41,142 nucleotides of DNA from a virus. The first letter of the stretch is position 1. Every line of letters begins with the position of its first letter. A model generated the notes under the pieces. It worked only from the letters and a program-made list of their open reading frames with translations. It was not told where the DNA came from and did no database searches. This document shows, piece after piece, positions 10,349 through 37,752 of this stretch. The stretch lies in the IMG/VR virus record IMGVR_UViG_3300017706_001312, positions 1 through 41,142 of that record. The stretch is one strand, 5' to 3'. The position numbers and the translations under genes are program-made.

Positions 10349-12442
10349 ATGAAAAAAGTTATATTAGCCGAAGGAGATAGTTGGACTGCTGGAGATATTA
10401 TAAACCCAGACTTAGAAGATAAGTTACATGGTTTTGTAAATCATCCATCAAATGATGAATATAGACTACCCAAAGTATGGCCAGCTAAACTTGACAAATA
10501 TTTTCATGCACGAATAATTAATAACGCTGTAGCAGGATCTTCAAACGATGGTATAGTAAGAAGAACTATTGATAAAGTATTAAAACTTTTAAAAACAATA
10601 AGTAGCGATAGAATATTAGTAATAGTAGGATTCTCATCACCTGAACGTAAAGACTTTTACTATAAAAAAGACAGCACTAGCGCTTGGGATACAGTATACC
10701 CCCTAGATATAGAAGCAGATCATTTATCACCAGATAGAAAGATATTCTATAAAGAATATGGTAAAATATACTGGAATAAAGAAGAGTATCTTACAAGGTA
10801 TATTCAATCTGTTATTCTTTTACATGGTTTTTTAGAGTCTAAAAATATAGAACATATTTTTTTCGATGCTTTTTATGAAATGAAAGAGTTTGGTCTTAAA
10901 CATTCTTACTCCTTAAACAGTGAAATAAACAGATTAAATAGCACTCTTGGAGAATTTAAAATTAAGTCTTTAGATTTGTATAACTCAATAGAAGAATACA
11001 AGCGAATACATAAAAAAGTATATGTTAATACTAGCTTTAAGTCTTTTATTAAACAAAATAATTACGAAATAGAAGGATATCATCCTAATGAAGAAAGCCA
11101 TAAAGCATGGGCTAAATATATAAGAGATCACTATTACAGTAAACATATATATAGCATAAAAGATAATGTTAATTCAGCCACTCTACATGCTCCTACAGAA
11201 GAACAATTAGCTCTATATAAAGATATCCCAGAGATAAATGAAGTAGATAACAGAGGTTACCCTATGTGTAGACCATTATTCTCTACTTCTGATATGCACT
11301 ATACTTTAAATATTAGAGAAAAAAAAGCAGAAGAATTAGCTCCTGACGAAAATTTCATATACCCTACTATACTTCACCATGATAATATACTTGCTTTTAA
11401 ACATTTGAACTTAATACCTGATTATGTTTTAGATGCAGTTCAATCTCATAGATGTAAGTTAATATTTGATAATAGTCTAGAAGGTAACAATGTGAGACAG
11501 GTAATACCTGCACTATACAATTCTGTAAAAAAACTTGAATTACCAGCTCAACAGATATATTATGTTACAAATAACCTATATGCTGAACATCAACACAAGG
11601 AGTATATAAAACAGCATTATGTTACAAATAGAATTAATGTAATATCGTTTATGTATAATGTTAGTGATATAAAAAGATTAATTTACTCTCCCGGTATCGT
11701 AGAAGGAGGAAGATTACCGGAAAAAGTAGATATACAGAAGCTTATAAAATTTAAAACAAATAATTTAAATAACATTAAACATTTTTTAAAGGTAAACCGA
11801 ACAGGAAGACCAGAAAGGAATATTTTTATGTTATTCATAAATAAACATAATCTGTATAAAGAATTTAAAATAAGCTTTCCAGAATATGGTCCTGAAAATT
11901 GTTATGATTTATTCCCTGAACTATCCTCAGAAGATAACATAAAAGATTTAACAGAAAAAATTCCATTTGATATCGATTCAACAGATACAGATAACCATGG
12001 AGACCCAGGAATAGGAAAAGGTAAGTTTGATGCTGATCTACCATTTCAAATTAAACACTACGATGAAACTTTTATTAGTCTTGTTATGTGTGCATTTCCA
12101 TTTGATGATGCTTGTCATTTACATAGCTCTACTTTTAACCCTATCTACTGTGGGCATCCTATCATACAATTCGGACCAAAAGGTAGTTTAGCAGAATTGA
12201 GAAAAAGGGGTTTTAAAACATTCGGTAAATGGTGGAATGAAGATTACGATACCATAGAGGAAGGGTGGGATAGGTTAAGAGCAATATTTAAATTAGTATT
12301 AGAATTATCTAAAAAATCTCCTACTGAAATGCTTGAAATGTATAAAGACATGGAAGAGACATTACAATATAACTCAGATTTAATATATAGTTATAATGTA
12401 CACAATGAATTAACTAATAGAATTATTTCAAATGCAATCTAG
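10349..12442 (+). CDS. Two-domain protein: SGNH/GDSL hydrolase-acyltransferase plus glycosyltransferase-like domain
   Basis: 697 residues, the longest gene product of the cluster. Residues 1-~265 are SGNH: LAEGDSWTAG (Ser11 nucleophile), NAVAGSSNDG (59-68, oxyanion Gly/Asn), VGFSSPER (93-100), and EGYHPNEESHKAWAKYI with His245. Glu242 sits where the Asp of the usual DxxH would be. After a linker, residues ~290-697 resemble a GT-B/exostosin-like family. The key stretch (573-634) has FNPIYCGHPIIQFGPKGSL followed by LRKRGFKTFGKWWNEDYD. I recall this as the pattern '..KP...GhPFi..G....L...GFkTF...deSYD' in many phage and capsular proteins. SGNH proteins in such clusters usually add or remove O-acetyl groups. 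It follows the only sizeable gap of the cluster. Confidence 0.72.
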   Translation: MKKVILAEGDSWTAGDIINPDLEDKLHGFVNHPSNDEYRLPKVWPAKLDKYFHARIINNAVAGSSNDGIVRRTIDKVLKLLKTISSDRILVIVGFSSPERKDFYYKKDSTSAWDTVYPLDIEADHLSPDRKIFYKEYGKIYWNKEEYLTRYIQSVILLHGFLESKNIEHIFFDAFYEMKEFGLKHSYSLNSEINRLNSTLGEFKIKSLDLYNSIEEYKRIHKKVYVNTSFKSFIKQNNYEIEGYHPNEESHKAWAKYIRDHYYSKHIYSIKDNVNSATLHAPTEEQLALYKDIPEINEVDNRGYPMCRPLFSTSDMHYTLNIREKKAEELAPDENFIYPTILHHDNILAFKHLNLIPDYVLDAVQSHRCKLIFDNSLEGNNVRQVIPALYNSVKKLELPAQQIYYVTNNLYAEHQHKEYIKQHYVTNRINVISFMYNVSDIKRLIYSPGIVEGGRLPEKVDIQKLIKFKTNNLNNIKHFLKVNRTGRPERNIFMLFINKHNLYKEFKISFPEYGPENCYDLFPELSSEDNIKDLTEKIPFDIDSTDTDNHGDPGIGKGKFDADLPFQIKHYDETFISLVMCAFPFDDACHLHSSTFNPIYCGHPIIQFGPKGSLAELRKRGFKTFGKWWNEDYDTIEEGWDRLRAIFKLVLELSKKSPTEMLEMYKDMEETLQYNSDLIYSYNVHNELTNRIISNAI

Positions 12443-12854
12443 ATCACTCTATAACGATATGTTTACTATAATAACAAATAGTAAAGTACAAAAAGATTTA
12501 CCGACAGACTTTGTAAACTTTTATGGATCGAAAGAAAAAGTTTCATACGAAATACAAAAATACCAATTAGAGAACGATATAGTTTTTAATGGACACTTTA
12601 TTACCACTGATTTAAATTTTGATATTGAAACTTTAAAACAATTGAAAAAAACTAGTTTGGACAAAACAGTTGTATATACATACGATATAACACATTCAGG
12701 AGTAGCTTCAGAATGTACTATTGATACATCTTTACTTTTATGTAGTGTCTGGACTCTTCCTATAGTATTAGAAAACTACAGAACCGGTGTTTCACTGTAT
12801 GGTGATTTACTTTCACATAGAATTAAAGTTAAACTTTTTAATAGGGTATTATGA
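12432..12854 (+). CDS. Unknown protein (140 aa) in glycan cluster
   Basis: No family recognised. The protein is mixed alpha/beta, with an aromatic and charged N-terminal half (FTIITNSKVQKDLPTDFVNF). A central DKTVVYTYDITHSG is followed by a segment with two nearby Cys (ASECTIDTSLLLCSVW). It has no signal peptide or membrane helix. The ATG at 12432 overlaps the previous gene by 11 bases; a second in-frame ATG at 12459 would leave a 16-base gap. The end is ATGA-coupled to the next glycosyltransferase-like gene. The YDITHSG segment might be part of an active site, but this is a guess. Confidence 0.5.
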   Translation: MQSRSLYNDMFTIITNSKVQKDLPTDFVNFYGSKEKVSYEIQKYQLENDIVFNGHFITTDLNFDIETLKQLKKTSLDKTVVYTYDITHSGVASECTIDTSLLLCSVWTLPIVLENYRTGVSLYGDLLSHRIKVKLFNRVL

Positions 12855-13633
12855 GAATAGCAGTTTGTCTTAGCGGCCAGCTTAGGAAATGGCATCTTGG
12901 TGCGAAAAATCAGAAGTGGTTTTGGACCACAGCTAATAGAGATGTAGTAGAGGTAGATTTTTTTGCCCATACCTGGACTTATAGTTGGGATAGAGCAGGA
13001 GTATCTCAAGAATATATTGAACGTTCTATAGATGAACAAGAAATACAAGACTTTAAAAATACATTTCAACCTAAAGGGTTAATAGTAGATTCCATACAGC
13101 AAAATGAATTTAGAGGTAATGATCACTGGAGTGCACTTTTTTATAGTCTGTCAAAGTCACTAATACTTAAAAAAGAATATGAACTTAAAAATAATTTTAA
13201 GTACGATGTAGTAGTAAAATCAAGACCAGATGTTATATTCTCTCCTGATGATACCTTTGCTTGTCCTAGGATTATTAATAATGTTATACATTCAACTCAT
13301 GGAGGACCTATGCCTATGGAGTTTAATATGTTTAATATTAATGACTGTGTTTTTTATGGTAATTCATATACTATGGATTTATTAATTAATTTATACTTCT
13401 ATAGACAGTTTGGCATACTAGAAGATAATATACAGAATGTAAAGAATATACATCCGTTAGGCCCAGGAACTTTAATGCATGAATTTTTTAGAGACTATGG
13501 AATAATGCCAAAAGTAGAAAGTTTATTTCACGAAGTACTTTTAAAGGAAGGTTGTCCAGAAGATTTAGATTTATTAGAGATAGATGATTTTAAAATAATG
13601 CAAAAATACTTTAGAGAGTGGTATGAAAAATAA
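12851..13633 (+). CDS. Glycosyltransferase-like protein of the SGQ...SRPD family (copy 1)
   Basis: 260 residues. It opens with a strand ending in CLSGQLRKW (6-14), then DFFAHTW (36-42), and a helix ELKNNFKYD leading into VVVKSRPDVIF (120-130). This pattern occurs in proteins of capsule and LPS loci that are annotated only as putative glycosyltransferases; the SRPD motif sits where GT-A enzymes carry their acidic metal-binding loop. Three relatives lie in this cluster at 22371, 24416 and 34369. This copy keeps the most canonical motifs. ATGA-coupled upstream, 11-base overlap downstream. The assignment as a glycosyltransferase rests on motif position and context. Confidence 0.6.
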   Translation: MRIAVCLSGQLRKWHLGAKNQKWFWTTANRDVVEVDFFAHTWTYSWDRAGVSQEYIERSIDEQEIQDFKNTFQPKGLIVDSIQQNEFRGNDHWSALFYSLSKSLILKKEYELKNNFKYDVVVKSRPDVIFSPDDTFACPRIINNVIHSTHGGPMPMEFNMFNINDCVFYGNSYTMDLLINLYFYRQFGILEDNIQNVKNIHPLGPGTLMHEFFRDYGIMPKVESLFHEVLLKEGCPEDLDLLEIDDFKIMQKYFREWYEK

Positions 13634-14399: not shown

Positions 14400-15316
14400 A
14401 AAAAACAATAGGGTTTTATACTTGCTCTAACGGATTTGGGCATTACAAACGTATCTCAATTATAGCTAAATATCTTTCTAACGATTACGATATCACTATA
14501 TATGGTACGTGGCACCAGATGTTTAATTTAGGTGGTGTAAAAAACTGTAGACACGTACAACAACACACTCATAATATTAGATGGGATAAAACTTTATCTA
14601 ACTCTAAAGTTGATTTTAAATCTTACAAAGAATGTTTAGAAAACCATAAAGAAGATTTACTTAGACATGATTATGTTATTTCTGATAATATAGTAGGGAT
14701 CTTAGAATACAGACCAGACGCTATTTTAAGTGGCTCATTTTTCTGGAAAGATGTATTCTTTAATAAATTTGGTAAAAATAAAATAACAGATTTTGATAAT
14801 GAACTTTTAGATAAACATAATCCTCTTATACTGACTAATAAATATGCTGAAACAGGTTCTATAAAGAACTATAAAAATAAAGTTCAATTTGGTTTTGGGT
14901 GTAAAGATAAAAAGTATAAAGAATTTAAAATCGATAAAATATTAACATTAAAACCAAGCCTAAATTATTTAGATACATATAGTACCTTTTTTGATAAACT
15001 CAAACTTAAAACTACTTCTGATTTTTCTGTAAAAGAAAATATAGCCTTAATGTGCAGACCAGGATTAGGTATCATAACACACTGTGTTGAAAATAATATT
15101 CCTTTAATAGCATTATACGATAAAAATGATTCTACAGAGATTATAGAACTAGCTAAATTAGTTGAAAAATTAGGCATAGGTTTTAAGCAAAATATCAATA
15201 GAGACTTTAATAATTTAAAGTTTGCTCTTTATAAGGACAACTCTATTTATAAGTATAACCAGTATGAAAAAGAAGGTTATAAAAATATAGCAAGTTATTT
15301 AAAAAAAATGTTATGA
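14396..15316 (+). CDS. GT-B fold glycosyltransferase
   Basis: 306 residues. The N-terminal NGFGHYKRI (12-20) is the Gly-rich acceptor loop seen in MurG-like and UDP-sugar GT-B enzymes (G-x-G-H-x-x-R). The C-terminal domain shows the donor-binding signature ALMCRPGLGIITHCVENNIPLI (217-238), followed by an acidic DKNDSTEI stretch, with residual LGIG before the C-terminal helices. It is shorter than typical GT-B enzymes (350-400), mainly in the linker. No membrane helix is seen, but association with a lipid-linked acceptor through the N-domain is possible in this group. ATGA junctions lie on both sides. Confidence 0.7.
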   Translation: MKKTIGFYTCSNGFGHYKRISIIAKYLSNDYDITIYGTWHQMFNLGGVKNCRHVQQHTHNIRWDKTLSNSKVDFKSYKECLENHKEDLLRHDYVISDNIVGILEYRPDAILSGSFFWKDVFFNKFGKNKITDFDNELLDKHNPLILTNKYAETGSIKNYKNKVQFGFGCKDKKYKEFKIDKILTLKPSLNYLDTYSTFFDKLKLKTTSDFSVKENIALMCRPGLGIITHCVENNIPLIALYDKNDSTEIIELAKLVEKLGIGFKQNINRDFNNLKFALYKDNSIYKYNQYEKEGYKNIASYLKKML

Positions 15317-16191
15317 TATACAGCTTCGGTGATAGTTTTACAGTAGGTCTAGGTGCTGATTACAAATATGAACAGTCCTTATTAGGTGATCACCCAGACT
15401 GGAGTAATATGTCAGAAACTAAAAAGAACTCTAACCGTAAAATAGTATATGATTACAGAGTTAAAAATTCATTTACTCACTTTTTCTCTGAGTTAATAAA
15501 TCAAGACTACGATAATAAAGGATTCATAGGTTGCAATAATAACTATATAGTAGACTACATATGTAATGAAATTGTAGGAGGTGTAATTACGGATAAAGAC
15601 TTAGTGTTAATAAACTTTACGTCTAGTCTGAGAAACTATCCGTCATTTTTACCGCATTTTTTTACTAGCAGACCTGAACAAGGAGTTGAAGGAATAACAT
15701 TCGGTCAAACAGAGTACGATGATAATCACGACTTAGAAGACGTAGGAGGTCATTTAAAAAACGAACTACTTACTAAATTCAACGGTAGAGGAGAACCTTT
15801 TTATAAGTATATAGGTAAATATAAACAGACTTATTTAAGACAGTCTTTTTCCTTCGATAGTTTAGATTATTATAATCAAAATCTTATTATATTTTTACAG
15901 AACCTATTATCTCATTACGATATAAAGTACCTTATGTTTGATGCTTTTGATCCTATGGTGAATACTACCAATATAAATTACACTAAATTCATAGACCAAT
16001 CCACTTATTGGGGGTTTAATAAAAATACTATATGGAGTTTTCTAAAAGAAAAGAATGATGATTTGTTATTAGAAGATAGACCAGAGCAGACAATACAAAG
16101 TAAAAAACACCCCAGTAAAGCAGGACATAAGTTATTTGCTACTGAACTTTACAAGTTATACAAAAAAAAATATGGTAAAATACTCATATAA
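15313..16191 (+). CDS. SGNH/GDSL-family hydrolase or O-acyltransferase
   Basis: 292 residues. MIYSFGDSFTVGLG places the nucleophile Ser at 8. GFIGCNNNYIVDYI gives an oxyanion-hole Gly/Asn region, INFTSSLR the third block, and SKKHPSKAGHKLFA the His block near residue 265. The residue three before that His is Ser rather than the Asp expected for a classical triad. An ~60-residue insertion (YPSFLPHFF...GGHLKNELL) sits between blocks III and V. In polysaccharide clusters such proteins typically transfer or remove acetyl groups. The gene starts with ATGA and is overlapped by 20 bases at its end. Confidence 0.72.
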   Translation: MIYSFGDSFTVGLGADYKYEQSLLGDHPDWSNMSETKKNSNRKIVYDYRVKNSFTHFFSELINQDYDNKGFIGCNNNYIVDYICNEIVGGVITDKDLVLINFTSSLRNYPSFLPHFFTSRPEQGVEGITFGQTEYDDNHDLEDVGGHLKNELLTKFNGRGEPFYKYIGKYKQTYLRQSFSFDSLDYYNQNLIIFLQNLLSHYDIKYLMFDAFDPMVNTTNINYTKFIDQSTYWGFNKNTIWSFLKEKNDDLLLEDRPEQTIQSKKHPSKAGHKLFATELYKLYKKKYGKILI

Positions 16192-16993
16192 CTTTTTTAA
16201 AAAATACAATAATTTTGATATAATACCATATCAAGAGGTTGTTGATAGTTATTTAGCTACTCAAAATTATTTGAGTACCATAAAAGAAAATTACGGTGGT
16301 GATAACTTTAAACCTATAAACTCAGACACACAAAATGTAGACAAAGGAGCATTTTGGGATGGATACTCTCCAGCCTATTACGATGTAAGTACGATTGGTA
16401 CAGGAGTAGTAGCTGCTAAAGCTGATGTGGTATCTATGGATATGGTAGGACTAAATACAAAATGGGATCATTTTATATATTTAGAACTTCCAAGTGAACT
16501 TTTTACTGTTTTTCAAAAAGGTGTTCACTCTAATCCAGATATTAGTATATTTAAAAAGTTTATAGAAGAAGTAAATATAAAGAAATTAACAGATACAGAA
16601 ATTATTATATTAGCTGAAATATACGATAAAATATACCCAGAAGTATCAGCTGTTGATACTTTTTTTATAAAGAGAGAGTTACCTGCTTGGAGACAAGACA
16701 TTAATATAAATCAATATATTTCTATAAAAAATGATGGTCTAATCTACCCTATATGTTTCAATAGTAATCACGGTATACTATCTAGAGGTACTCATAGAGG
16801 TATAATGTTAGCATCTACCGGAAGCAAAGTACCGGTTTTTATATTAAACAATAAACTTGGTAGTACTCCACCTGATAATAACTGGCAAGTAACATTAGCC
16901 GAAAGATACGGTGACCATGATATGCACTTTACTATGGATTTTACGAATCAAAAATTAAACTTTTATAAAAATAACGAATTAGTTCTAATATAA
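16172..16993 (+). CDS. Unknown protein with possible ParB/Srx-like THR motif (paralogue of 21430)
   Basis: 273 residues from the ATG at 16172 (a TTG at 16136 would lengthen the overlap to 56 bases and is less likely). It shares with the protein at 21430 a WDHFIYLELP-like strand, a helix ending in IYDKIYPE, and then INQYISIKNDGLIYPI. That is followed by RGTHRGIMLASTGSKVPVFI (205-224). The order 'DGL.yPi ... G-x-HR ... G...VPV' resembles the ParB/sulfiredoxin-like nucleotide-binding fold, in which the HR pair contacts phosphate. Some members of that fold are serine kinases or CTPases. Nothing else identifies a reaction, so this is inference. It lies between an SGNH gene and the cytidylyltransferase. 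Confidence 0.5.
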   Translation: MVKYSYNFFKKYNNFDIIPYQEVVDSYLATQNYLSTIKENYGGDNFKPINSDTQNVDKGAFWDGYSPAYYDVSTIGTGVVAAKADVVSMDMVGLNTKWDHFIYLELPSELFTVFQKGVHSNPDISIFKKFIEEVNIKKLTDTEIIILAEIYDKIYPEVSAVDTFFIKRELPAWRQDININQYISIKNDGLIYPICFNSNHGILSRGTHRGIMLASTGSKVPVFILNNKLGSTPPDNNWQVTLAERYGDHDMHFTMDFTNQKLNFYKNNELVLI

Positions 16994-16994
16994 G

Positions 16995-17672
16995 ATGAAA
17001 TCATTAGCAGTAATCATACACGCGAGACAAAAGAGCACTAGATGCCCTAACAAGCATTTAAGACCATTAGGTGAGCAAGGAGAGACTCTTCTAAGCATAG
17101 CACTTAATAAACTAAGAGATATCAAAAACGTAAAAGAAAGATATCTAGCAGCGCACGAACAAGATATAATAGATGCTTATATACCTGGCATAAATATACT
17201 ACACAGAGATTATGATTCAGTAGCACCAGGAAACGCTCATCATTCTGTAATGTATAAACACCTTAAAGAAGTACAAGCAGACTATATATGTAATTTTAAC
17301 CCTTGTCAACCGTTCATGGATCAAAGCAAAATACAGAAAGCTATAGATTGGTTTATAAATAGTAAATACGACAGTGCTATAACAGTAGCTAAAGAAAGAA
17401 ACTTTTACTGGGATGATAACTTACTACCGGTTAATTTTAAAACAAACGATAGGTTATCAACCACAGCTGGTCCTTGGTTATATAAAGCAACTCATTCATT
17501 AGTATTCTACAAAAAGGAATATATGTTAAAAAACTGGGAGTTGTTTTCAAACTCAATAAATGATCCCTATCCTCTCGTTATAGATTGGCCAGAAGAAGAA
17601 ATAATAGATGTAGACACAGAATTAGATTTTAAATTAGTTGAAAAAATATATGAAATACGTAATAGACATTGA
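16995..17672 (+). CDS. NeuA/SpsF-like cytidylyltransferase (probable CMP-sugar synthetase)
   Basis: 225 residues, the normal size for CMP-nonulosonate or CMP-Kdo synthetases. The CTP-binding P-loop is AVIIHARQKSTRCPNKHLRPL (5-25), matching I-x-A-R-x-x-S-x-R-x-P-x-K. FNPCQPFMD follows as the second nucleotide-contact motif. WPEEEIIDVDTELDFKLVE near the end carries the metal-binding Asp residues. Together with the NeuB-type synthase at 30119 it would activate a nonulosonic acid as CMP sugar; an SpsF-like role with another sugar is the alternative. One base separates it from the previous stop. It is overlapped 23 bases by a HAD phosphatase gene, which suits a coupled dephosphorylation-activation step. 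Confidence 0.75.
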   Translation: MKSLAVIIHARQKSTRCPNKHLRPLGEQGETLLSIALNKLRDIKNVKERYLAAHEQDIIDAYIPGINILHRDYDSVAPGNAHHSVMYKHLKEVQADYICNFNPCQPFMDQSKIQKAIDWFINSKYDSAITVAKERNFYWDDNLLPVNFKTNDRLSTTAGPWLYKATHSLVFYKKEYMLKNWELFSNSINDPYPLVIDWPEEEIIDVDTELDFKLVEKIYEIRNRH

Positions 17673-17949
17673 TGATACTATCTGCAAAGAAGAAGGACCG
17701 GTAATCGGTAGAGTACCTTTTAAAGATAGAATAGAGAAAATTAACAAAATGTATGACCAAGGTGATATAATTATTTACTATACAGCTAGAGGCAATAAAA
17801 GCGGTAGAGGAGAAGCTTATTATAGACCTATCACAGAAGCTCAGTTAGAAAGTTGGGGCTGTAAATATCATCACTTATACTTTAAACCTTTTGATGCAGA
17901 TATATTTATAGACGACAGGGGAGTACACCCTAAAGATTTTTTTGAATGA
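17650..17949 (+). CDS. Small HAD-family phosphatase
   Basis: 99 residues from the ATG at 17650 (a TTG 12 bases earlier is possible). The HAD nucleophile motif is VIDIDDTIC with Asp6 and Asp8; motif II is IIYYTARG; the acidic motif IV is ADIFIDDRG near the C-terminus, preceded by a Lys (YFKPF). This minimal cap-less HAD type is frequent in capsule and nonulosonate clusters. By context it may remove the phosphate from a NeuB-type product (Neu9P-like) before the CMP transfer catalysed by its overlapping neighbour. ATGA-coupled to the following SGNH gene. Confidence 0.75.
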   Translation: MKYVIDIDDTICKEEGPVIGRVPFKDRIEKINKMYDQGDIIIYYTARGNKSGRGEAYYRPITEAQLESWGCKYHHLYFKPFDADIFIDDRGVHPKDFFE

Positions 17950-18686
17950 AAAATTTATATATTAACGGATGTAGTTATACCGTAGGTCATGAACTTGACT
18001 CGGAACAAACTTGGCCCGTATTATTATCTAAATTAACTAATCTTAATCTTATAAACGAAGCTAAGAACGGTCAATCTATGGAGTCTATTAAAATTAACAG
18101 TATAAACCATCTTAGCAAATTAGATCCCAAAGATACTACTGTTATTATAGGCTTAACTTGGCCTTTGAGAACTTCGTACAGTTACAATAGGTTTAATATC
18201 AATTTTACACCATCTGACTTTGATGGAGTTTTAAATATAAATGCTAAACTATCTACCTGGAGAAGAATAAGCAGCCCTTATTACTATACAGATAAAGAAA
18301 TACGTTCAGAAAGAGTGAATAATAACATATTAGAACTTAATAAAAAACATGATGAAAGTTTAGAAGTACTTACTAAGTACTATGACTACCAGAAAGCTTT
18401 AGCTACACATAGTAGTACATATACTTTAGATAACACTACTCGCTTTATTACAGATATTATTTCACTGCAAAGTTTTTTAAAAGTAAATAAATTTAAATAC
18501 TCATTTGTTTATTACGACATTAATATTTTTGCACAAATTTTATACGGAGAATTGTCTTATTTATCTAAACAGATAGACTTTGAAAAAATAATTAAATTAT
18601 TCCAATTAACACCTAACGAAACATGTCATCCTACAGAATTAGACTGTAAAGAATACGCTAAAGAAATATATGAAACAGTTTTTTAA
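17946..18686 (+). CDS. SGNH-like protein, GCSY variant
   Basis: 246 residues. It starts with a strand and NGCSYTVG (7-14), in which Cys replaces the Asp of GDS but Ser10 is kept. NEAKNGQSMES matches block II (Gly/Asn), VIIGLTWPLR block III, and ETCHPTELDCKEYAKEIY the C-terminal His block, with Glu three residues before the His. Long helices between blocks III and V are typical of this subgroup, which includes the proteins at 23135, 29284 and 33109. It may be an O-acetyltransferase or esterase of the glycan. It overlaps the following nucleotidyltransferase by 17 bases. Confidence 0.65.
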   Translation: MKNLYINGCSYTVGHELDSEQTWPVLLSKLTNLNLINEAKNGQSMESIKINSINHLSKLDPKDTTVIIGLTWPLRTSYSYNRFNINFTPSDFDGVLNINAKLSTWRRISSPYYYTDKEIRSERVNNNILELNKKHDESLEVLTKYYDYQKALATHSSTYTLDNTTRFITDIISLQSFLKVNKFKYSFVYYDINIFAQILYGELSYLSKQIDFEKIIKLFQLTPNETCHPTELDCKEYAKEIYETVF

Positions 18687-19401
18687 TATAGTACTGCCAA
18701 TGGCAGGAAGAGGTTCAAGATTTAGACAACAGGGTTATAAAGACTCTAAACCATTTATTGATGTAGAAGGTAAACCTATGATTCAAAGAGTAGTAGAAAA
18801 TCTTAATATAGAGTTTGATAAAAATTTTAAATTTATCATACTATGTCAAAAAGCTGATTATGAGCAATATGATTTTACTTTGTTTAATAAAATGATTGGT
18901 CATGATAATATAGAAATTGTTAAACTAGATGGAATTACAGAAGGTGCTGCTTGTACATTACTAACAGCTAAAGAGTTTATAGATAATAAAGTACCTCTCC
19001 TAAGTTTTAACTCTGATCAAATGATTGACTACGATCCTAACAATACATACAGTAGATTAAGTCTGCATGATGGAGGAATGCCGTGCTTTAAAGGAGATGG
19101 ACCTAAATGGTCATACGCAAAGACTGATGAAGATGGGTATGTAACAGAAGTAGCCGAAAAGAAACAAATATCAAACGATGCAACTGCAGGATACTACTAT
19201 TGGAGTAGAGGATCTGACTTTGTTAAATACGCAGAACAAATGATAGAAGCAGATGATAGATTAAATAATGAATTTTATGTAGCACCAGTCTACAACTATG
19301 CTGTTAAAGACGGTAAAAGAATAGTAATTACTCAAGTAGATAGAGTATACCAAATGGGTACTCCTGAAGACTTAGAAGAATATTTAAATGGCAGAAAATA
19401 A
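18670..19401 (+). CDS. Sugar-1-phosphate nucleotidyltransferase-like enzyme
   Basis: 243 residues, one NTP_transferase domain. IVLPMAGRGSRF (7-18) is the pyrophosphorylase G-x-G-S/T-R loop, with the catalytic-type Lys in SKPFIDVEGKPM (26-37). FNSDQ is the equivalent of the metal-binding D in the following strand. WSYAKTDEDGYVTEVAEKK and GYYYWSRGSDFVKY are sugar-binding strands. There is no hexapeptide or other C-terminal domain. It is very similar along its length to the C-terminal half of the fusion at 31743, so a duplication within the cluster is evident. It presumably activates a sugar phosphate or similar monophosphate with an NTP. Confidence 0.8.
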   Translation: MKQFFNIVLPMAGRGSRFRQQGYKDSKPFIDVEGKPMIQRVVENLNIEFDKNFKFIILCQKADYEQYDFTLFNKMIGHDNIEIVKLDGITEGAACTLLTAKEFIDNKVPLLSFNSDQMIDYDPNNTYSRLSLHDGGMPCFKGDGPKWSYAKTDEDGYVTEVAEKKQISNDATAGYYYWSRGSDFVKYAEQMIEADDRLNNEFYVAPVYNYAVKDGKRIVITQVDRVYQMGTPEDLEEYLNGRK

Positions 19402-23135: not shown

Positions 23136-23884
23136 TGAAATATCTTATAGCAGCAGGTTGTAGTTTTATAGAAGGCGCCTCTATGATTGATAAACACTCT
23201 TACGGTAAAAATGTTTCTATAGAGAAAAGTACTTCATGTAGAATGTCTAAATTACTTTCCACTAAATTAAATAGCACAGAAGTAAACTTAGGAAGCTCAG
23301 GAGGTTCAAATTATAGATCTATAAGATTGACTTATGAATGGATTAAAGCTAATAAAGCTAAGGTAAAGGATTCTACAATAGTAATTGGTTTAACAGAATT
23401 ATTTAGATCAGAAAAATACTCTACTAAAACTCAAAGTTATGTAAAGTGGAGAAATACAATATTTTTTCAAAATGAAAAAAACTTAAGTATAATTAATGAT
23501 AACCCTCATAAACTTATCCCTAGTTCTTTTACTTTTCATGAGCTCATAGAAAAAGAAAACTTACTTCCATCTTTAATCGAGTACGTAAAAACCGACTTAA
23601 CTTTATTTTGTGATATAAAATATGAACTAGATAAATTAGAACAGCAGTTAACCACGTTAAGTGCATACATAGAAAAACATGGAGGTAGGTTAGTAGTATT
23701 TTCTGCTATGATGGAAGATTCAAACTTACAGACTACTGATATAGATTTTTTTAATTTCCCTACAGGTTTTTCATGGAGAAACTATATTTCGAGTTACGAT
23801 GATGATTTTCATCCAAGTCATCACCCAGCAGTAAAGGATGATGAGATATTATCTAATTTACTTTATGATCATATAAACAAATAA
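23135..23884 (+). CDS. SGNH-like protein, GCSF variant
   Basis: 249 residues. IAAGCSFIEGASM (6-18) holds the nucleophile Ser10, with Cys in place of the GDS Asp. NLGSSGGSNYRSI matches block II, TIVIGLTELFRSE block III, and DDDFHPSHHPAV near residue 228 the C-terminal His block. Here an Asp lies three residues before the first His, so this copy may keep a full Ser-His-Asp triad. A long central helix pair (KYELDKLEQQLTTLSAYIEK) is shared with the 29284 and 33109 proteins, marking one subfamily. One-base TAATG overlaps join it to the genes on both sides. Confidence 0.68.
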   Translation: MKYLIAAGCSFIEGASMIDKHSYGKNVSIEKSTSCRMSKLLSTKLNSTEVNLGSSGGSNYRSIRLTYEWIKANKAKVKDSTIVIGLTELFRSEKYSTKTQSYVKWRNTIFFQNEKNLSIINDNPHKLIPSSFTFHELIEKENLLPSLIEYVKTDLTLFCDIKYELDKLEQQLTTLSAYIEKHGGRLVVFSAMMEDSNLQTTDIDFFNFPTGFSWRNYISSYDDDFHPSHHPAVKDDEILSNLLYDHINK

Positions 23885-24426
23885 TGGAATTAACAGTAAG
23901 ACTAAATTCAGATACAATATCTACCTATACTAGTAACAGTATACTCATAGGACATGATATTATTAAAAAAGATGATAGAACTACTGATATTGAATGGTTT
24001 TTTGATGCTCTTAATTACTCTACTATAATAAAATCTGAATTGGAACTTAAAAATAAAAGAGTATTTACAAAAGTAAAATTAATATACGAAAACAAAGAAA
24101 CAGATAATCTAGATATACCAGATAATAAAATATTTCCAAATTGTATTTTATCTAACGACGTTTACTCCTTTCTTCAACACCAGCATGACCCAGAACAAAG
24201 GTGTAAAGAACACTCTATTAGAATAGTAAATATTTTTAAATGGGTAGCAGATTCTCTAACATATGATAAAGTTGCTACAATATCAAACGAACACGTATTT
24301 AAATACAGCAAACAGAATAATAAAATATACGCTATAGAAGGTCAAAGTGAAAAAAGGATGTCTAATTTAAACTACATAGTTTTTAAAATGTTCAATAACT
24401 TAAATATTAATAGTTATGAAATCTGA
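23884..24426 (+). CDS. Unknown protein (180 aa) in glycan cluster
   Basis: Not recognised. The N-terminal ~80 residues look beta-rich with alternating strands (LTVRLNSDTISTY, FTKVKLIYENKET). The central part has a His-rich turn (LQHQHDPEQRCKEHS) followed by a helix (IVNIFKWVADSLTYD), and the C-terminal part is again beta (EHVFKYSKQNNKIYAIEG). The clustered His/Asp/Cys could bind metal, but no known motif is formed. It is embedded with TAATG and an 11-base overlap between an SGNH gene and an SGQ-family glycosyltransferase, so it is certainly part of the operon. Confidence 0.5.
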   Translation: MELTVRLNSDTISTYTSNSILIGHDIIKKDDRTTDIEWFFDALNYSTIIKSELELKNKRVFTKVKLIYENKETDNLDIPDNKIFPNCILSNDVYSFLQHQHDPEQRCKEHSIRIVNIFKWVADSLTYDKVATISNEHVFKYSKQNNKIYAIEGQSEKRMSNLNYIVFKMFNNLNINSYEI

Positions 24427-25183
24427 TTTTAAAATAGCTATTCAACTATTTGGCCAACTGCGTATGTGGGAAGACCAAGAGTACCTTAAACCTTTTATAA
24501 GTTTTTTAAAAGAACAAGCAAGCTCAGTAGATGTATTTGGAAGCTTTTGGAATGATGAATATAGTCAACAGAATATAAATAAATATAATACTGATATTTT
24601 TACTGAGTATGAATTAGTACCTATACCGGATAAGATATTTAAAGGACTTTGGAGATGGGGATACTGTTTACTTAAGTCAAGAAATTTAAGATATAGATAT
24701 CAATTTAAAAATAATAAACGATACGATTTAGTCATAATGATGAGACCTGATTTGTATATAAAAATAGCTAAGCCTGAATTACTAGAAAGGTTTTTAAACT
24801 CTATAGTTGCAAAAAAATATCTATATAAAATATGGACTCAAAAAGTTATATCTAACTCTAGTGTAAAACCATTTGATGTAGATGATAAATGTTTTTACGC
24901 AACACCTGAAGCAGCTGATATATTTTGTCTTGGCTTTAACCATATACATAATAATCCTGAAAATAATTCTCACTCAGCATATCACACTGACCCTGTATCA
25001 TTCATCAAAACTTTCAATTTAATAGTTGAACCGTTCAATATTATAGCACCTTTTGCAAATTTTAATTTAATAAGACACCAATACCTAGCACAAAAAGGTT
25101 TAACAACTGAAAAAATAGACGACAAACTAAAGTCGCTTAAAACATTAGATGAGGTGAAAAATCTAGTAAAAGAACATTTATGA
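24416..25183 (+). CDS. Glycosyltransferase-like protein of the GQLR...RPD family (copy 3)
   Basis: 255 residues. IAIQLFGQLRMWED (7-20), VDVFGSFWND (38-47), and YRYQFKNNKRYD leading to VIMMRPDLYI (106-115) align in order with the proteins at 12851 and 22371. The C-terminal half includes CFYATPEAADIF, parallel to LLTSEAADIH in copy 2, showing that copies 2 and 3 are closer to each other than to copy 1. The HxW of copy 1 is SFW here. Likely a nucleotide-sugar transferase of unknown specificity. ATGA-coupled to the radical SAM gene downstream. Confidence 0.58.
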   Translation: MKSDFKIAIQLFGQLRMWEDQEYLKPFISFLKEQASSVDVFGSFWNDEYSQQNINKYNTDIFTEYELVPIPDKIFKGLWRWGYCLLKSRNLRYRYQFKNNKRYDLVIMMRPDLYIKIAKPELLERFLNSIVAKKYLYKIWTQKVISNSSVKPFDVDDKCFYATPEAADIFCLGFNHIHNNPENNSHSAYHTDPVSFIKTFNLIVEPFNIIAPFANFNLIRHQYLAQKGLTTEKIDDKLKSLKTLDEVKNLVKEHL

Positions 25184-28476: not shown

Positions 28477-29287
28477 AATAGGATTTTTAACACCTTATAA
28501 CCATCTACCAGAATTTACTAAATTTGCTAAAGGTAATTTTAAATGTATTAATATGGTCGGCTTACCAAAAGATAAATTGAATATTTTTAAAAGCGTAGAC
28601 TATTTTTTTGCAGCTCCTAATTACTTAAAGTATATAATCGAACAAAAAGATATAGAAGGTACAAACATAAAAGGAATAATTACTCCCTCTACTGGCGACA
28701 ATCATCTCAACGTTTCTGTACCGGTTATCTCAATAAAGAATGATAATATACTTAAACAAATATACTCTACCGCAGAGCACAGCCTATACTTATGTTTAGC
28801 TTTACCTAGAGAGATAGGAAACATAGTAGAATTAAAAGAAAAAACATTAGGTATTTTAGGGTACGGTAGACTAGGTAAAATATTAGAGAAAATAGCTAAA
28901 CCGTTATTTAAATCAGTATTGAAAGCAGATTTAGATTTCATAGATGATGATTTTTTTAATAATACTGATTTTTTAAGTGTCAATATCGATTATAGAAAGT
29001 CAAACATAGAGTATATTAATGAAGAATATGTTGGAAAGTTCAGAAAAAATATCTATATTGTTAATACAAGCCGTGGTGAATTCGTTGACGAAGGAGATAT
29101 AGTAAAACTATTATACGATGGTAAGTTATTAGGATACGGGACTGATGTTATACAGGAAGAACACACCTCTAAAGCCACAGTACTTAAATGTTATCATGAT
29201 AATCGTATATTCATTACTAAACACGTTGGAGGAACAGCTATTGAAGCACAAGAGAAGGCTTATAAAAGAGTTTTAGAAAAGATATGA
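28469..29287 (+). CDS. D-isomer-specific 2-hydroxyacid dehydrogenase (SerA-like)
   Basis: 272 residues, shorter than the usual 310-330. TAEHSLYLCLALPRE (101-115) is the conserved helix before the NAD domain. TLGILGYGRLGKILE (126-140) is the G-x-G-x-x-G dinucleotide loop. IVNTSRGEFVDEGDI has the catalytic-type Arg202, YGTDVIQEE the usual DV-x-x-x-E strand with the catalytic Glu region, and ITKHVGGTAIEA the catalytic His252. The region after the first NAD strand is compressed by ~20 residues. Family chemistry is NAD-dependent oxidation of a 2-hydroxyacid such as 3-phosphoglycerate, or the reverse. With the aminotransferase two genes upstream it could form a short amino-acid route. ATGA-coupled downstream. 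Confidence 0.78.
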   Translation: MYRIGFLTPYNHLPEFTKFAKGNFKCINMVGLPKDKLNIFKSVDYFFAAPNYLKYIIEQKDIEGTNIKGIITPSTGDNHLNVSVPVISIKNDNILKQIYSTAEHSLYLCLALPREIGNIVELKEKTLGILGYGRLGKILEKIAKPLFKSVLKADLDFIDDDFFNNTDFLSVNIDYRKSNIEYINEEYVGKFRKNIYIVNTSRGEFVDEGDIVKLLYDGKLLGYGTDVIQEEHTSKATVLKCYHDNRIFITKHVGGTAIEAQEKAYKRVLEKI

Positions 29288-30135
29288 ATAAATTTGACTG
29301 TATAGCTGCATTTGGATGTAGCTTTGTAGAAGGAGCTTCAATATACGATGGAGTTGACGAAAGACATACTGATAAAGAAACACCATGGGTAGGAGATAAA
29401 TATAGGTTTTCTAAAGAACTAGCAGATCATTACAATATTCCAGAAGTTAATATGGCTATGTCAGGGTTTAGTAATGAATCCATCCTCAGAAGAATATTTA
29501 GATTTTTTAGTAATAACAATGGTAAATATAAAAAACCACTTATAGTTATAGGTACCTCTGGACTTGCTCGTAAAGAAGTATATTCTAATCATCTCAATAG
29601 ATTTTTTGATATACATCAATTAGAAGAGTTTTTTCATACTGATCGCAGAAGATCAGCTTTAGAAGCTATGACAATTAAACTTACCGGTAATGTAGATAAT
29701 GCGGATGACTTAAAAAACTACGTTAATTTAAATATGAAGTATTTCTTTGACGCTAAAATGGAAATAGAAAAACTAGAATGGCAAATTACTTTTCTTATCG
29801 GGTTTTTAAATAATAATAATATACCCTATATACTGTTTAATTCTATAGAAGATGTATTAACAGATAAAATTAAAAAGTCTTCTAATTACTTGTCATTTGG
29901 TTATAAAACAATATATGAAAATATAGAACGAGAAGGAGGGTATTCAATTAATTCCGATTGTTGGTATACTGATTTTCATACTAAACACGCAAAGAAATAC
30001 GGAGATTGGGAAACAGGTTCTAGAAGTTTGTTTAAACCTTATGGTGAATTTGCATGTGGTGGTCATCCATCACCTGGGTCACATAAAAATTTAGCAAATA
30101 AAATAATAAAGTATATAGATGAAAATAATATCTGA
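29284..30135 (+). CDS. SGNH-like protein, GCSF variant
   Basis: 283 residues. IAAFGCSFVEGASI (7-20) with nucleophile Ser13; MAMSGFSNESIL for the Gly/Asn block; LIVIGTSGLARKE for block III; and ACGGHPSPGSHKNLA near residue 266 for the His block. The Asp of the classical D-x-x-H is absent (Cys-Gly-Gly precede the His). The central helices EIEKLEWQITFLIGFL match those of the 23135 and 33109 proteins. Probably a glycan O-acyltransferase or esterase working as a Ser-His dyad. It overlaps the NeuB-type gene by 17 bases. Confidence 0.68.
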   Translation: MNKFDCIAAFGCSFVEGASIYDGVDERHTDKETPWVGDKYRFSKELADHYNIPEVNMAMSGFSNESILRRIFRFFSNNNGKYKKPLIVIGTSGLARKEVYSNHLNRFFDIHQLEEFFHTDRRRSALEAMTIKLTGNVDNADDLKNYVNLNMKYFFDAKMEIEKLEWQITFLIGFLNNNNIPYILFNSIEDVLTDKIKKSSNYLSFGYKTIYENIEREGGYSINSDCWYTDFHTKHAKKYGDWETGSRSLFKPYGEFACGGHPSPGSHKNLANKIIKYIDENNI

Positions 30136-30952
30136 GTTATGTCAAAATCACAACGGTGATAGAGATTTATTAGAAAGAATGGTCAAAAATGCTGCGGTAT
30201 GTAGCGATATAGTTAAAATACAGTCCATAAAAGCTAATACATTTACTTACAGAAAGGAGTATGAAGAATATAGACCATACGAACCAGAGTTTGTTAGGTT
30301 AAAAGGTTTAGAGTTATCTAGAATAGATGAAGAGTTCTTTATCTTTAAATGTATGGAGTACGGAGTTGAATCAATGACTACTATATTTGTTCCTCAACAC
30401 GCTCCTAGGTTTAACGAATTAGGTTACGATAACTTAAAACTATCAGGCTACTCTATTCCTGCATTTGATTATGGCAAAAAGTTAAAAAATTTCAAGTTTA
30501 AAAGATTATTCTTCTCTACCTCCAGTCTAACTATAGAAGAGATCAAACAAACTGTTAATAATCTTAATGAGATGGGAATTGAGTACTATATGTTACAATG
30601 TACCTGTGTATACCCTACTCCTTTATCTAAACTTAACTTACAGAATATAGAATATTTTCGTAACGAACTTGGAGTCAAGAACGTTGGTTTAAGTGATCAT
30701 ACTAATCCTCATGAAGATAACTTATTATCTTCTAAGTTAGCTATATTTCAAGGTATAGATGTTATAGAGAGACATTTTACAGTTCTTGATATAGATGATA
30801 CTCGAGACGGTAAAGTATCAGTTACTCCAAAGATGATGTCAGAGATAAAAAGATTTAGTACCTTATCAAAAGATGATCAGTATCGTGAACTTAACGAGTT
30901 TAACGAACAGCAAATATTTAATCACAATTATTATAGAGGAAGATTTAAATGA
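30119..30952 (+). CDS. NeuB-type nonulosonic acid synthase, catalytic domain only
   Basis: 277 residues. TIM-barrel motifs of the NeuB/SpsE family appear in order: ELCQNHNGD (6-14), VKIQS (32-36), LKLSGYSI (107-113), FFSTSSLT (131-138), LQCTCVYPTPLSKLNL (159-174), VGLSDHT (189-195) and VIERHFT (215-221). The family condenses phosphoenolpyruvate with N-acetylmannosamine or a related six-carbon sugar. The C-terminal SAF (antifreeze-like) domain of ~60-70 residues, present in classical NeuB, is missing. In the last motif the usual D-H is D-G (TRDGKVSVTP). Loss of the SAF domain removes the lid that reaches the neighbouring active site in the dimer, so its kinetics or substrate may differ. ATGA-coupled to an SGNH gene. 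Confidence 0.82.
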   Translation: MKIISELCQNHNGDRDLLERMVKNAAVCSDIVKIQSIKANTFTYRKEYEEYRPYEPEFVRLKGLELSRIDEEFFIFKCMEYGVESMTTIFVPQHAPRFNELGYDNLKLSGYSIPAFDYGKKLKNFKFKRLFFSTSSLTIEEIKQTVNNLNEMGIEYYMLQCTCVYPTPLSKLNLQNIEYFRNELGVKNVGLSDHTNPHEDNLLSSKLAIFQGIDVIERHFTVLDIDDTRDGKVSVTPKMMSEIKRFSTLSKDDQYRELNEFNEQQIFNHNYYRGRFK

Positions 30953-31746
30953 TTTTATTTACAAACGGAGATAGTTGGACACAAGGTGACTCACCTGCTC
31001 AAGACATAAACTGGGAAGCTACTAAGAGTGAAGACTGGTATGATATTATCCCAGACTTTGGTAATTTATACAAATATTATAAAGTAGATGAAAAAACACA
31101 ATTTATTAATAAAAACACAAGGATATTATACAAGTTTTACGATTCAGATGTTTGGCCAAAAGTATTAGGTAAAAAACTTGGAGTTGAAACATGGAACGCT
31201 GGTAGACTAGGTGACGGTAATAGCGACATATATAGTTCTACAATCCAATCTATAGAGTACTTGAAAAAACAAGGGAAAAAAGATATATTTGCTATTATAG
31301 GTTGGACAGCTAAAACTAGAATACCTATATATTGGGTTGAAAAAGATGAATTACAAGTTGTACAACAGAGACCTGATGATTACCTTATGGCAAATTCATT
31401 GTATAAAAGAAAAAACTATATACAAAACGAATTTTTACAGTATATATTAGGATTACAGAATTATTTTGAAAATAATAATATAGACTACCTTATGTTTAAC
31501 GCATTTGATCAGTTTGAAGATTTTAATGAACACTTTCTTTCTGATTCTATAGATAAAACAAAGTGGGTTAACTATAATCCTAAAGCAGCACACTTTAAAG
31601 AGTATATTACTGCTAAGTTTAACATTAAAAGTACTTCTGAAGAAGATAGAAAAGCAAGAGAGAAGTATATTATTACAGGTCATCCAACAGATATTTCTCA
31701 TCGAGCATGGGCTAAGTATCTTTACAATTATATACAATCATTATGA
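30949..31746 (+). CDS. SGNH/GDSL-family protein, GDSW variant
   Basis: 265 residues. FTNGDSWTQGD (4-14) carries nucleophile Ser9; WNAGRLGDGNSDI is block II; FAIIGWTAKTRIP is block III; and ITGHPTDISHRAWAKYLYNYI near the C-terminus is the His block. The block I (GDSWT-x-GD) and the C-terminal HP-x4-SH-x-AWAKY segment match the SGNH half of the two-domain protein at 10349, so these two form one subfamily, separate from the GCSF group. No Asp precedes the catalytic His. It may act on the same acceptor as the fusion. ATGA junctions on both sides. Confidence 0.72.
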   Translation: MILFTNGDSWTQGDSPAQDINWEATKSEDWYDIIPDFGNLYKYYKVDEKTQFINKNTRILYKFYDSDVWPKVLGKKLGVETWNAGRLGDGNSDIYSSTIQSIEYLKKQGKKDIFAIIGWTAKTRIPIYWVEKDELQVVQQRPDDYLMANSLYKRKNYIQNEFLQYILGLQNYFENNNIDYLMFNAFDQFEDFNEHFLSDSIDKTKWVNYNPKAAHFKEYITAKFNIKSTSEEDRKAREKYIITGHPTDISHRAWAKYLYNYIQSL

Positions 31747-33119
31747 GTGCAATAAAATTAATTATATTCGATTTAGATGGAGTTTTAGTAGAAGCAAAAA
31801 ATATTCATTTTGATGCTTTAAATGAAGCATTATCGAGTATTAACCCTGGGTACAAAATAGGCTGGTCGGAACATTTAAATACGTACGACGGATTAAAGAC
31901 ATTTCAAAAACTAGACCTACTAACTAAAGAAAAAGGATTACCAGCCGAAGTACATAACGATGTATGGAATAAAAAACAGCAGCTAACATTACAAAAACTT
32001 TCTGATTTAGAACCAAATGAAGATTTAATAGCTACATTCCAGTTACTATATAAAGATGGTTTTAAATTAGCAGTATGTTCTAACTCTATCAGAAGAACAG
32101 TACTTACTGTACTAGCTAAACTTGGACTAATAGAGTATTTAGATCTTATAATATCCAACGAAGATGTTACTAACAGTAAACCCCACCCAGAAATGTACTG
32201 GAAAGCTATATCAACTATGAGTATGCTTCCCGAAGAAACTTTAATAGTAGAAGATTCTCCTTATGGATTACTTGCCGCCGCGAGAAGTAAATCGTATATT
32301 TTAAGAGTAAAGAATCCTAAAGAGGTAACATACAATAACATTATGAATAAAATAGACACAATAGATAACGGAGAGAAACAAGCAACACCAGCATGGAGAG
32401 ACGATAACTTAACAGTACTTATTCCAATGGCAGGAGCTGGAAGTAGATTTGAACAAGCCGGGTATACTTTTCCTAAACCTCTCATAGACGTTAAAGGTAA
32501 ACCTATGATTCAAGTAGTAACTGAAAACTTAAACATAAAAGCTAACTTTGTTTACGTAGTACAGAAAGCTCATAGAAAGAAATATAATCTAGATACTCTG
32601 TTAAACTTAATAACTCCTAAATGTAAAATAGTCGAAGTAGAAGGAGTAACAGAAGGAGCAGCATGTACAGCTCTACTAGCTAAGAAGTATATAGATAACA
32701 ATAAACCTTTATTCTTTGCCAACTCAGATCAATTTGTTGAGTGGGATAGTAATGAATTTTTATATAAGATGAATGAAACAGAGGCTGATGGTGGTATAGT
32801 AACGTTCAAAGCTACTCACCCTAAATGGTCTTTTGCAAAAGTAGATGAAAAAGGACTAGTTACAGAAGTAGCAGAAAAGAAACCAATCTCTGATACAGCT
32901 ACTGTTGGATTTTATTACTGGAAACAAGGATCTGACTTTGTTAAGTATGCTGAAGAGATGATTGAAGAAAATATCAGAGTAAATAATGAGTTTTACGTAT
33001 GCCCTGTATTCAATCAAGCTATCAAAGATGATAAAGCCATAAGAATATTTAACGTAGATAACATGTGGGGATTAGGTACACCAGAAGATTTAAAATATTA
33101 CTTAGAGAATGTCAAATAA
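31743..33119 (+). CDS. Fusion of HAD phosphatase/phosphomutase-like domain with sugar nucleotidyltransferase domain
   Basis: 458 residues. Domain 1 (1-~205) is a beta-phosphoglucomutase-type HAD: IIFDLDGVLVE (7-17, Asp10 and Asp12), a helical cap, CSNSIRRT (112-119), SKPHPE with Lys146, and VEDSPYGLLAAA (169-180). Domain 2 (~220-458) is an NTP_transferase: LIPMAGAGSRF (226-236), PKPLIDVKGKPM, ANSDQ, WSFAKVDEKGLVTEVAEKK and FYYWKQGSDFVKYAEEM. It is very close to the free-standing enzyme at 18670. The junction is a clean linker (GEKQATPAWRDDN). The fusion suggests a phosphate transfer or removal followed directly by nucleotide activation of the same sugar. It overlaps the next SGNH gene by 11 bases. 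Confidence 0.85.
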   Translation: MSAIKLIIFDLDGVLVEAKNIHFDALNEALSSINPGYKIGWSEHLNTYDGLKTFQKLDLLTKEKGLPAEVHNDVWNKKQQLTLQKLSDLEPNEDLIATFQLLYKDGFKLAVCSNSIRRTVLTVLAKLGLIEYLDLIISNEDVTNSKPHPEMYWKAISTMSMLPEETLIVEDSPYGLLAAARSKSYILRVKNPKEVTYNNIMNKIDTIDNGEKQATPAWRDDNLTVLIPMAGAGSRFEQAGYTFPKPLIDVKGKPMIQVVTENLNIKANFVYVVQKAHRKKYNLDTLLNLITPKCKIVEVEGVTEGAACTALLAKKYIDNNKPLFFANSDQFVEWDSNEFLYKMNETEADGGIVTFKATHPKWSFAKVDEKGLVTEVAEKKPISDTATVGFYYWKQGSDFVKYAEEMIEENIRVNNEFYVCPVFNQAIKDDKAIRIFNVDNMWGLGTPEDLKYYLENVK

Positions 33120-33933
33120 ATATTCAGAAATATTTACCGCAGGCTGTAGTTTTTTTGAACGTGCTTACGATCATGATTTAGAAAACTCAAGAAATAATAA
33201 ATATGACGGCAAAGTAGATTCTCCGGATTTTTGGTATCAGCATAGTTTTCCTAAACTTCTTTCAGATAAATTAAACTTACCTTTTACTAATGTAGCAAAA
33301 CCAGGACATAGCAATTCATTTATTATCAGATCTGCTTATGATTTTATTACTAATAGAAATAATGATTCACATGCAGTTATGGTTTTAGGGTTGACATCTT
33401 TATCTAGAAAAGAATTACAAGCTCCTAAAGATAATAAATACCATCCAGTTACCCCTACTGATCACCACGTAAATCATCCTAACTATTTAAAGTACTTTTC
33501 ACAATATATTGAACCAGAAAAATTTTCACATTTAATAGATAATAACTACAAATACTTATTTAACACCGAACTGGCACTTAACGAGTTAATTCAACAACTT
33601 AATATGTTAGAAGCATATGCTAGAGTAAATAGAATAAAACTAATAGTATTTTTCAGTTTTTTTAAAAGTCATAACTTGCATTTATCTGATAAAATATTTG
33701 ACCCTAAAAATGCTTTCGATTACTTCAACTTTGGTTTTGGTGACCAAAGAGTATTAGCTTGGACTGATTTCATAGATTTATATGCACCAAATCATAAAGG
33801 TGGTCATCCTTTTATATATGACAACAATGTACTAGCTAATTATTTGGCGTCTTACATTAATAACGGTAAAGTTGAAAGGCTGGTAGTTAACCCTAAATAC
33901 TATACAGCAGGATTAGATTTAAAATTTATTTAA
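33109..33933 (+). CDS. SGNH-like protein, GCSF variant
   Basis: 274 residues. IFTAGCSFFERA (8-19) keeps Ser14; VAKPGHSNSFIIRSA is block II; VMVLGLTSLSRKE is block III. NHKGGHPFIYDNNVLANYLA holds the candidate His, again without the expected Asp three residues before. The paired central helices (ALNELIQQLNMLEAYARV) match those of the 23135 and 29284 proteins. The last ~25 residues after the His block are an unusual extension ending GLDLKFI. A one-base TAATG overlap joins it to the GDPD-like gene. Confidence 0.65.
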   Translation: MSNKYSEIFTAGCSFFERAYDHDLENSRNNKYDGKVDSPDFWYQHSFPKLLSDKLNLPFTNVAKPGHSNSFIIRSAYDFITNRNNDSHAVMVLGLTSLSRKELQAPKDNKYHPVTPTDHHVNHPNYLKYFSQYIEPEKFSHLIDNNYKYLFNTELALNELIQQLNMLEAYARVNRIKLIVFFSFFKSHNLHLSDKIFDPKNAFDYFNFGFGDQRVLAWTDFIDLYAPNHKGGHPFIYDNNVLANYLASYINNGKVERLVVNPKYYTAGLDLKFI

Positions 33934-37728: not shown

Positions 37729-37752
37729 TCATCAACTACACATATATATAAG

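Follow-up and report, generated by a model that had tools for sequence, protein, structure and literature searches.

A multi-copy family of SGNH-fold proteins in the glycan island of a marine tailed phage, with a predicted role in glycan decoration

Introduction

Why would a single phage carry seven divergent SGNH-type proteins within one stretch of sugar genes, and what could they do if most of them lack the Asp of the classical catalytic triad? In classical SGNH enzymes, the Asn of block III contributes to the oxyanion hole and an Asp three residues before the block V His is the triad acid; the Asp of the "GDS" motif in block I is not the triad acid. The window, i.e., the whole stretch of DNA that was analysed, is a virus record of 41,142 bases with a G+C content of 31%. 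An initial annotation had suggested that its seven SGNH proteins are specialised O-acyltransferases or esterases, or else repurposed binding proteins. The superfamily is already known, as is the kind of island in which the genes reside. What goes beyond that annotation is the loss of the block III Asn, a near-invariant Arg, a fusion to a glycosyltransferase and an exchange pattern.

The Glycan Island

The source of the DNA is a marine tailed phage. The tail sheath, the tube and subsequent tail genes lie at the 3' end of the window. The sheath protein and its counterpart in Flavobacterium phage immuto are 62.5% identical, and the order of the sheath, tube and next genes is common to the two phages. 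This likeness is no more than a hint of a host among the Bacteroidota.

The island itself occupies positions 2276 to 35366 on the + strand, as delimited by gene spacing, Pfam content and its flanks, which are tail-fibre-type and sheath genes. It comprises 40 tightly packed genes on a single strand of about 33 kb, almost all of them overlapping and none separated by more than 28 nt. The layout supports a single operon, as had been proposed. Promoter and terminator scans across the island were near chance level. A promoter-like site was found at 35432–35460, immediately 5' of the sheath gene, and a strong terminator-like hairpin at 37750–37776, 3' of the tail tube gene. In immuto, about 2.4 kb separate the tail fibre gene and the sheath gene, with small genes and a lysozyme between them. 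The island is missing from this position, and neither the SGNH nor the glycosyltransferase profiles found a relative in the 31 kb of immuto that were examined.

Pfam matches in the island include glycosyltransferases, sugar-nucleotide enzymes, radical SAM enzymes, an aminotransferase and a methyltransferase. There is also a NeuB-like nonulosonic acid synthase (30119–30952, +; Pfam NeuB 3.6e-30, NCBIfam NeuB/PseI below cut-off), a NeuA/PseF-like cytidylyltransferase (16995–17672, +; Pfam CTP_transf_3 2.8e-12) and, again by Pfam, a HAD phosphatase fused to a sugar-nucleotidyltransferase (HAD-NTP transferase; 31743–33119, +). The C-terminal half of this fusion is 53% identical to an NTP transferase at 18670–19401, and the pair is likely to reflect a duplication within the island.

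Other genes are paralogous as well. Those at 4922–6346 and 6744–8153 both encode a GT7-type galactosyltransferase domain fused to a laminin-G/ConA-like lectin domain. A second set (12851–13633, 22365–23135 and 24416–25183; mutual identity 25–32%) has no Pfam match and was judged by eye to be glycosyltransferase-like; relatives of its first member occur in tandem strings in virus records L056 and L047. Two paralogues of unknown family, at 16136–16993 and 21430–22374, are 31% identical across 124 residues. The sole apparent gap of the early island is occupied by a 67-codon ORF at 4726–4929.

The host recognition cluster described for pelagimyophages and cyanomyophages is of a similar kind: it too is large and variable, lies among the structural genes and combines tail fibres with glycosyltransferases and radical SAM genes (PMC7029224). 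However, that cluster lies between VrlC and gp14, and the part of the account that was consulted mentions no SGNH genes, whereas the present island precedes the sheath of an immuto-like phage.

Seven Copies of One Family

All seven SGNH ORFs named in the initial annotation are present, on the + strand, with ATG starts, and they are mutually related: S1 (10349–12442; 697 aa), S2 (15313–16191), S3 (17946–18686), S4 (23135–23884), S5 (29284–30135), S6 (30949–31746) and S7 (33109–33933). BLASTP matches between copies join S4 with S7 (1e-19), S4 with S5 (8e-17) and S1 with S6 (3e-13), and S2 and S3 are weak in pairwise comparison. A profile built from the seven copies and iterated over viral loci, some of which overlap, collected 225 and later 291 ORFs, the 225 being spread over about 80 loci. 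Matches to the family profile include S2 (E 1.3e-34), S3 (1.2e-40), S4 (5.2e-47) and S7 (4.5e-49), and the family alignment contains exactly seven members in the window.

The standard SGNH family PF13472 has no match in the window. Instead, 93 of 135 family members match Pfam DUF6071 (PF19547), for which Pfam states no function or mechanism and for which no naming paper was found in the literature searched. S1 (E 1.5e-13) and S6 are above the DUF6071 cut-off, S3, S4 and S5 match below it, and S2 and S7 are unmatched. All seven are one family, largely DUF6071, and automatic annotation has already named some relatives "SGNH_hydrolase".

Multiple copies are usual for this family, and seven is not the maximum. 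Among 29 virus records picked for having at least one member, each has at least two, and the number of matches ranges from 2 to 10. The 28.6 kb record G014 (L047) has ten matches to the SGNH family, some of them overlapping partial matches. Searches elsewhere used methods of limited sensitivity: tblastn with S1, S5, S6 and three relatives gave no match among 50,697 phage records, and bacterial and archaeal genomes, scanned twice by pattern, likewise yielded none. Scans with S4 alone or S2 alone were empty although relatives exist, which demonstrates the limited sensitivity of the scans. Members of the family may therefore still occur in cells or in cultured phages.

An SGNH Fold with an Altered Active Site

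The AlphaFold2 model of S5 has a mean pLDDT of 92.8 and places Ser13 right after the first strand, block III at the end of strand 85–91 and His261 right before the last helix. Around Ser13 and His261, strands and helices follow the order usual for SGNH proteins. Nearly all of the best 50 PDB fold matches of S5 are SGNH/GDSL enzymes, including the CE2 enzyme 2w9x, with TM-scores, by target length, of up to 0.61. The family sequence profile likewise reaches GDSL and CE2 enzymes. Model, PDB matches and profile agree on the SGNH membership that had been claimed: a three-layer α/β/α fold is supported by models and PDB fold matches for S1 and S5 and, at the level of homology, for the other five copies. 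The paired-helix core that had been attributed to the copies with a block I Cys appears in the S5 model as helices 137–154 and 157–177, but it is not specific to that group, since S1, a GDSW copy, has a comparable pair (128–140 and 144–164).

The copies share with the SGNH/GDSL superfamily (Lipase_GDSL, Lipase_GDSL_2) the fold, the Gly-x-Ser of block I, the Gly of block II and the His-Pro of block V before the last helix. They differ in having Ser or Thr for the block III Asn, an additional near-invariant Arg and mostly no block V Asp. Among 167 non-redundant members, the block I Ser and the block V His are both invariant (167/167), and the block II Gly is found in 132, the remainder having mostly Ala or Ser. 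The block III position is never Asn: it is Thr in 103, Ser in 52 (Ser or Thr in 155 of 167), Pro in 10 and Gln in two. Four residues further on, an Arg is present in 166 of the 167. In S5, these positions are Ser92 and Arg96; in S1, the conserved residues are Ser11, Arg100 and His245. Ser92 is taken as the likely counterpart of the block III Asn from its position, where the third strand ends. When the profile was compared with that of E. coli TesA, the alignment covered blocks I and II and did not extend to block III.

The residue three before the His is as first described: Glu in S1 and S3, Asp in S4 (from DDFH; S4 has DDFHP and HHP close to its C terminus), and Ser, Cys, Ile and Lys in S2, S5, S6 and S7, respectively. 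An acid is indeed absent here in most copies; however, this is not special to them but holds across the family, with Asp in only 18 and Glu in six of 156 relatives. No acid at all occurs within the six residues before the His in 59 of 167 members, including S2, S6 and S7. The best conserved acid column, two residues past the Arg, has Asp or Glu in 95 of 167, and no acid is family-wide. On this alignment, the family appears to have neither the classical triad acid nor the classical oxyanion Asn.

Neither loss implies inactivity, as several precedents show. In CE2 esterases, a Ser-His dyad aided by a main-chain carbonyl is sufficient for activity, and the Asp is missing from 14 of 26 of them (PMC2661963). 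To conclude from the missing Asp alone that catalysis is lost is accordingly rejected. The copies resemble the CE2 enzymes CtCE2 and CjCE2B in their Ser-His dyad without a triad Asp, and CE2 structures are among both the fold and the profile matches, but CE2 enzymes retain the block III Asn and have a β-sheet domain, and sequence identity is 14%. The O-acetyltransferases PatB1 (DHHW family), which has an Arg in its oxyanion hole, and XOAT1 (PC-esterase family), which is without the block III Asn, are by their description also SGNH-fold carbohydrate enzymes that do not use this Asn (PMC9487903). The PatB1 Arg sits in block II, unlike that of the copies, and XOAT1 is a Golgi enzyme of plants. 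By analogy, the Arg of the copies may be an oxyanion-hole residue. Since superfamily branches without the block III Asn are known (SASA, XOAT1, PatB1), the copies are filed as an SGNH variant by fold rather than as a classical member.

The altered oxyanion hole and the want of a family-wide acid might also be read as signs of a non-catalytic protein that binds or scaffolds glycans on an SGNH fold, and the active site of the esterase CtCE2 does bind cellulose (PMC2661963). Yet CtCE2 is itself still an active esterase (PMC2661963), and neither the Ser nor the His varies in any of 167 sequences that are otherwise little alike. This absolute conservation makes the repurposed binding protein of the initial annotation less likely, and we regard a non-catalytic family as improbable. 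The conserved Ser and His could nevertheless serve another reaction or ligand binding.

Ancestry and Exchange

The block I letters had been used to divide the copies into two motif groups. The letters hold: GDSW in S1 and S6, GDSF in S2, GCSY in S3 and GCSF in S4, S5 and S7. The groups do not correspond to two clades, however. In trees of 167 members (FastTree) and 95 rows (IQ-TREE), S4, S5 and S7 have a common older ancestor (97, starred) and S1 and S6 are loosely joined (81), whereas S2 stands apart, as does S3 in spite of its GCSY motif. The Asp/Cys state of block I has changed at least eight times on the tree, at least four of these changes being forced by starred branches, and it differs even among orthologues of S1. 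With this many changes, and with the Asp of GDS not being the triad acid, Asp versus Cys is rejected as a functional divide.

The phylogeny also bears on how the copies arose. Every copy falls in a clade of its own with other viral contigs (FastTree support 0.87–1.0, with 1.0 for S3), and the IQ-TREE result agrees; S6, for example, is in a starred clade of 10 rows. Each copy having its own orthologues in other viral contigs, recent in-place duplication is rejected. The orthologues also recur in the same positions across contigs. S1 is found 3' of a radical SAM gene and S5, as in the window, between a 2-hydroxyacid dehydrogenase and NeuB. S6 lies between NeuB, which it directly follows here but from which one gene sometimes separates it, and the HAD-NTP transferase fusion, with S7 next, 3' of that fusion.

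The contig nearest to the S4–S7 half of the island (L001) served as reference for dS. It includes orthologues of S4 (L001:978-1730, 51%) and S7 (L001:11826-12701; another is L017:4944-5780). Synonymous divergence is 1.52 for S4, 0.75 for S5, 1.58 for S6 and 1.16 for S7, against 0.22–0.40 for the radical SAM, 2-hydroxyacid dehydrogenase, NeuB and HAD-NTP transferase genes and two neighbouring genes; the sheath stands at 0.37. At the protein level, NeuB and the HAD-NTP transferase are 98–99% identical to their counterparts, while S6, between them, is 77% identical. High dS is not limited to SGNH genes, as it is also seen in the aminotransferase and in the genes at 24416 and 27091. Single genes with high dS amid near-identical ones are better explained by recombinational replacement than by rapid protein evolution, and S4–S7 look like exchanged alleles. 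The dN/dS ratios of S4–S7, 0.10–0.51 and rough at such high dS, indicate that these genes are probably under purifying selection.

Link to Glycosyltransferases

S1 consists of an SGNH domain (residues about 1–265) and a second domain (about 277–697). In the model of S1 (pLDDT 90.7), the C-terminal 420 residues adopt the fold of a GT-B enzyme. The best PDB matches of S1 are trehalose-phosphate synthases, TreT and SdgB, and SGNH enzymes are matched as well. The GT-B matches are of GT4/GT5/GT20 type, with a best E of 2.7e-05 and TM-scores by target length of up to 0.41 for a query that includes the SGNH domain. No Pfam glycosyltransferase family was recognised in the C-terminal part, and the GT-B domain could be inactive.

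The same fusion is found in four contigs, i.e., the window and L032, L037 and L042. With the glycosyltransferase part as sole query, 23 contigs were found, one of which starts inside the glycosyltransferase gene; in all 22 of the testable contigs, an S1-type SGNH is in the same locus, either fused to the glycosyltransferase or a few genes away. An S3-type SGNH is located directly 5' of the glycosyltransferase gene in 14 of these 22. This fusion and linkage are the best evidence for an SGNH role in glycan assembly and, with the sugar genes that surround the copies, uphold the proposed association with glycan synthesis. Near SGNH copies of other contigs, genes judged by eye to encode a methyltransferase, a glycosyltransferase and a sulfotransferase (L012:5091-5597, L012:7226-8017 and L094:9235-9807) would represent further types of glycan-decorating enzyme.

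Predicted Function

On balance, we favour the reading that the copies are cytosolic carbohydrate O-acyltransferases or esterases of a phage glycan pathway, each with its own position or acceptor, and consider it probable, though by no means secure. The specialised O-acyltransferase or esterase role of the initial annotation stands as the most likely one through the GT-B fusion and linkage; the activity itself is a prediction. Proteins that are cytosolic, linked to glycosyltransferases, conserved in Ser and His and exchangeable are most economically explained as a set of carbohydrate O-acyl-modifying enzymes that differ in specificity.

In the proposed mechanism, the His would activate the Ser, which would attack an acyl donor or an acyl-sugar. 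A backbone carbonyl would hold the His in place of an Asp, as in CE2 esterases, and the Arg and the block III Ser/Thr would stand in for the usual Asn at the oxyanion, as Arg does in PatB1. The simplest guess for the donor is a cytosolic compound, for example acetyl-CoA, since neither a signal peptide nor a membrane segment was seen, nor any membrane acyl exporter. No hydrophobic segment was found, the highest Kyte-Doolittle mean over 19 residues being 1.35; nor was an acyl-CoA-binding feature identified. The finished glycan would go onto the virion or the surface of the infected host.

There is a modest preference for transferases over esterases, based on the copy number, on the fact that no other acyl-adding enzyme was recognised in the island and on an oxyanion site altered as in known transferases. 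Characterised SGNH enzymes are mostly esterases, and the copies might instead be de-O-acylases with sugar-nucleotides or host glycans as substrates, comparable to the esterase domain that NeuA contributes to sialic acid synthesis. In group B streptococcus, this domain deacetylates O-acetyl sialic acids (PMC8319020), and NeuB-like and NeuA-like genes are present in the island. The loss of the block III Asn does not decide the matter, as it is common to some transferases and SASA esterases (PMC9487903). Nevertheless, it would be odd for one pathway to have seven distinct esterases when no acetyltransferase is recognised in the island, and we consider pure de-O-acylation rather unlikely.

Least probable of all, in our estimate, is another kind of acyl transfer, such as N-acylation of an amino sugar or acylation of a peptide. 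The unusual invariant Arg and the altered block III could be accommodated by such a reaction, and the presence of radical SAM, aminotransferase and 2-hydroxyacid dehydrogenase genes nearby suggests that unusual amino or hydroxy acids may be involved. However, a plain O-acyl role already explains the close co-location with glycosyltransferases.

If the O-acyl reading is taken one step further, the copies might constitute an undescribed class: cytosolic SGNH-fold carbohydrate acyltransferases with a Ser-His dyad and an Arg oxyanion hole, deployed as a swappable decorating set that varies the glycan of near-identical phages. We put this forward tentatively, as something that may well prove wrong.

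Significance

No description of the family-wide Ser-Arg-His signature, of the fusion or of the exchange pattern was found in the literature searched, which is part of what exists. A Pfam family of unknown function can hereby be given a fold, a pathway and a candidate active site made up of Ser, Arg and His. Marine phage glycan islands appear to hold a large, exchanging set of decorating enzymes that is invisible to standard family searches. The seven copies have the look of an exchangeable toolkit for attaching small groups to a phage-directed glycan or trimming them from it. If they are acyltransferases, this would explain how surface glycans vary while the genes that build the sugars stay nearly constant. 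Should the tentatively proposed class be real, the chemical pattern of the glycan would be switchable between near-identical phages, like the serotype genes of bacterial capsules.
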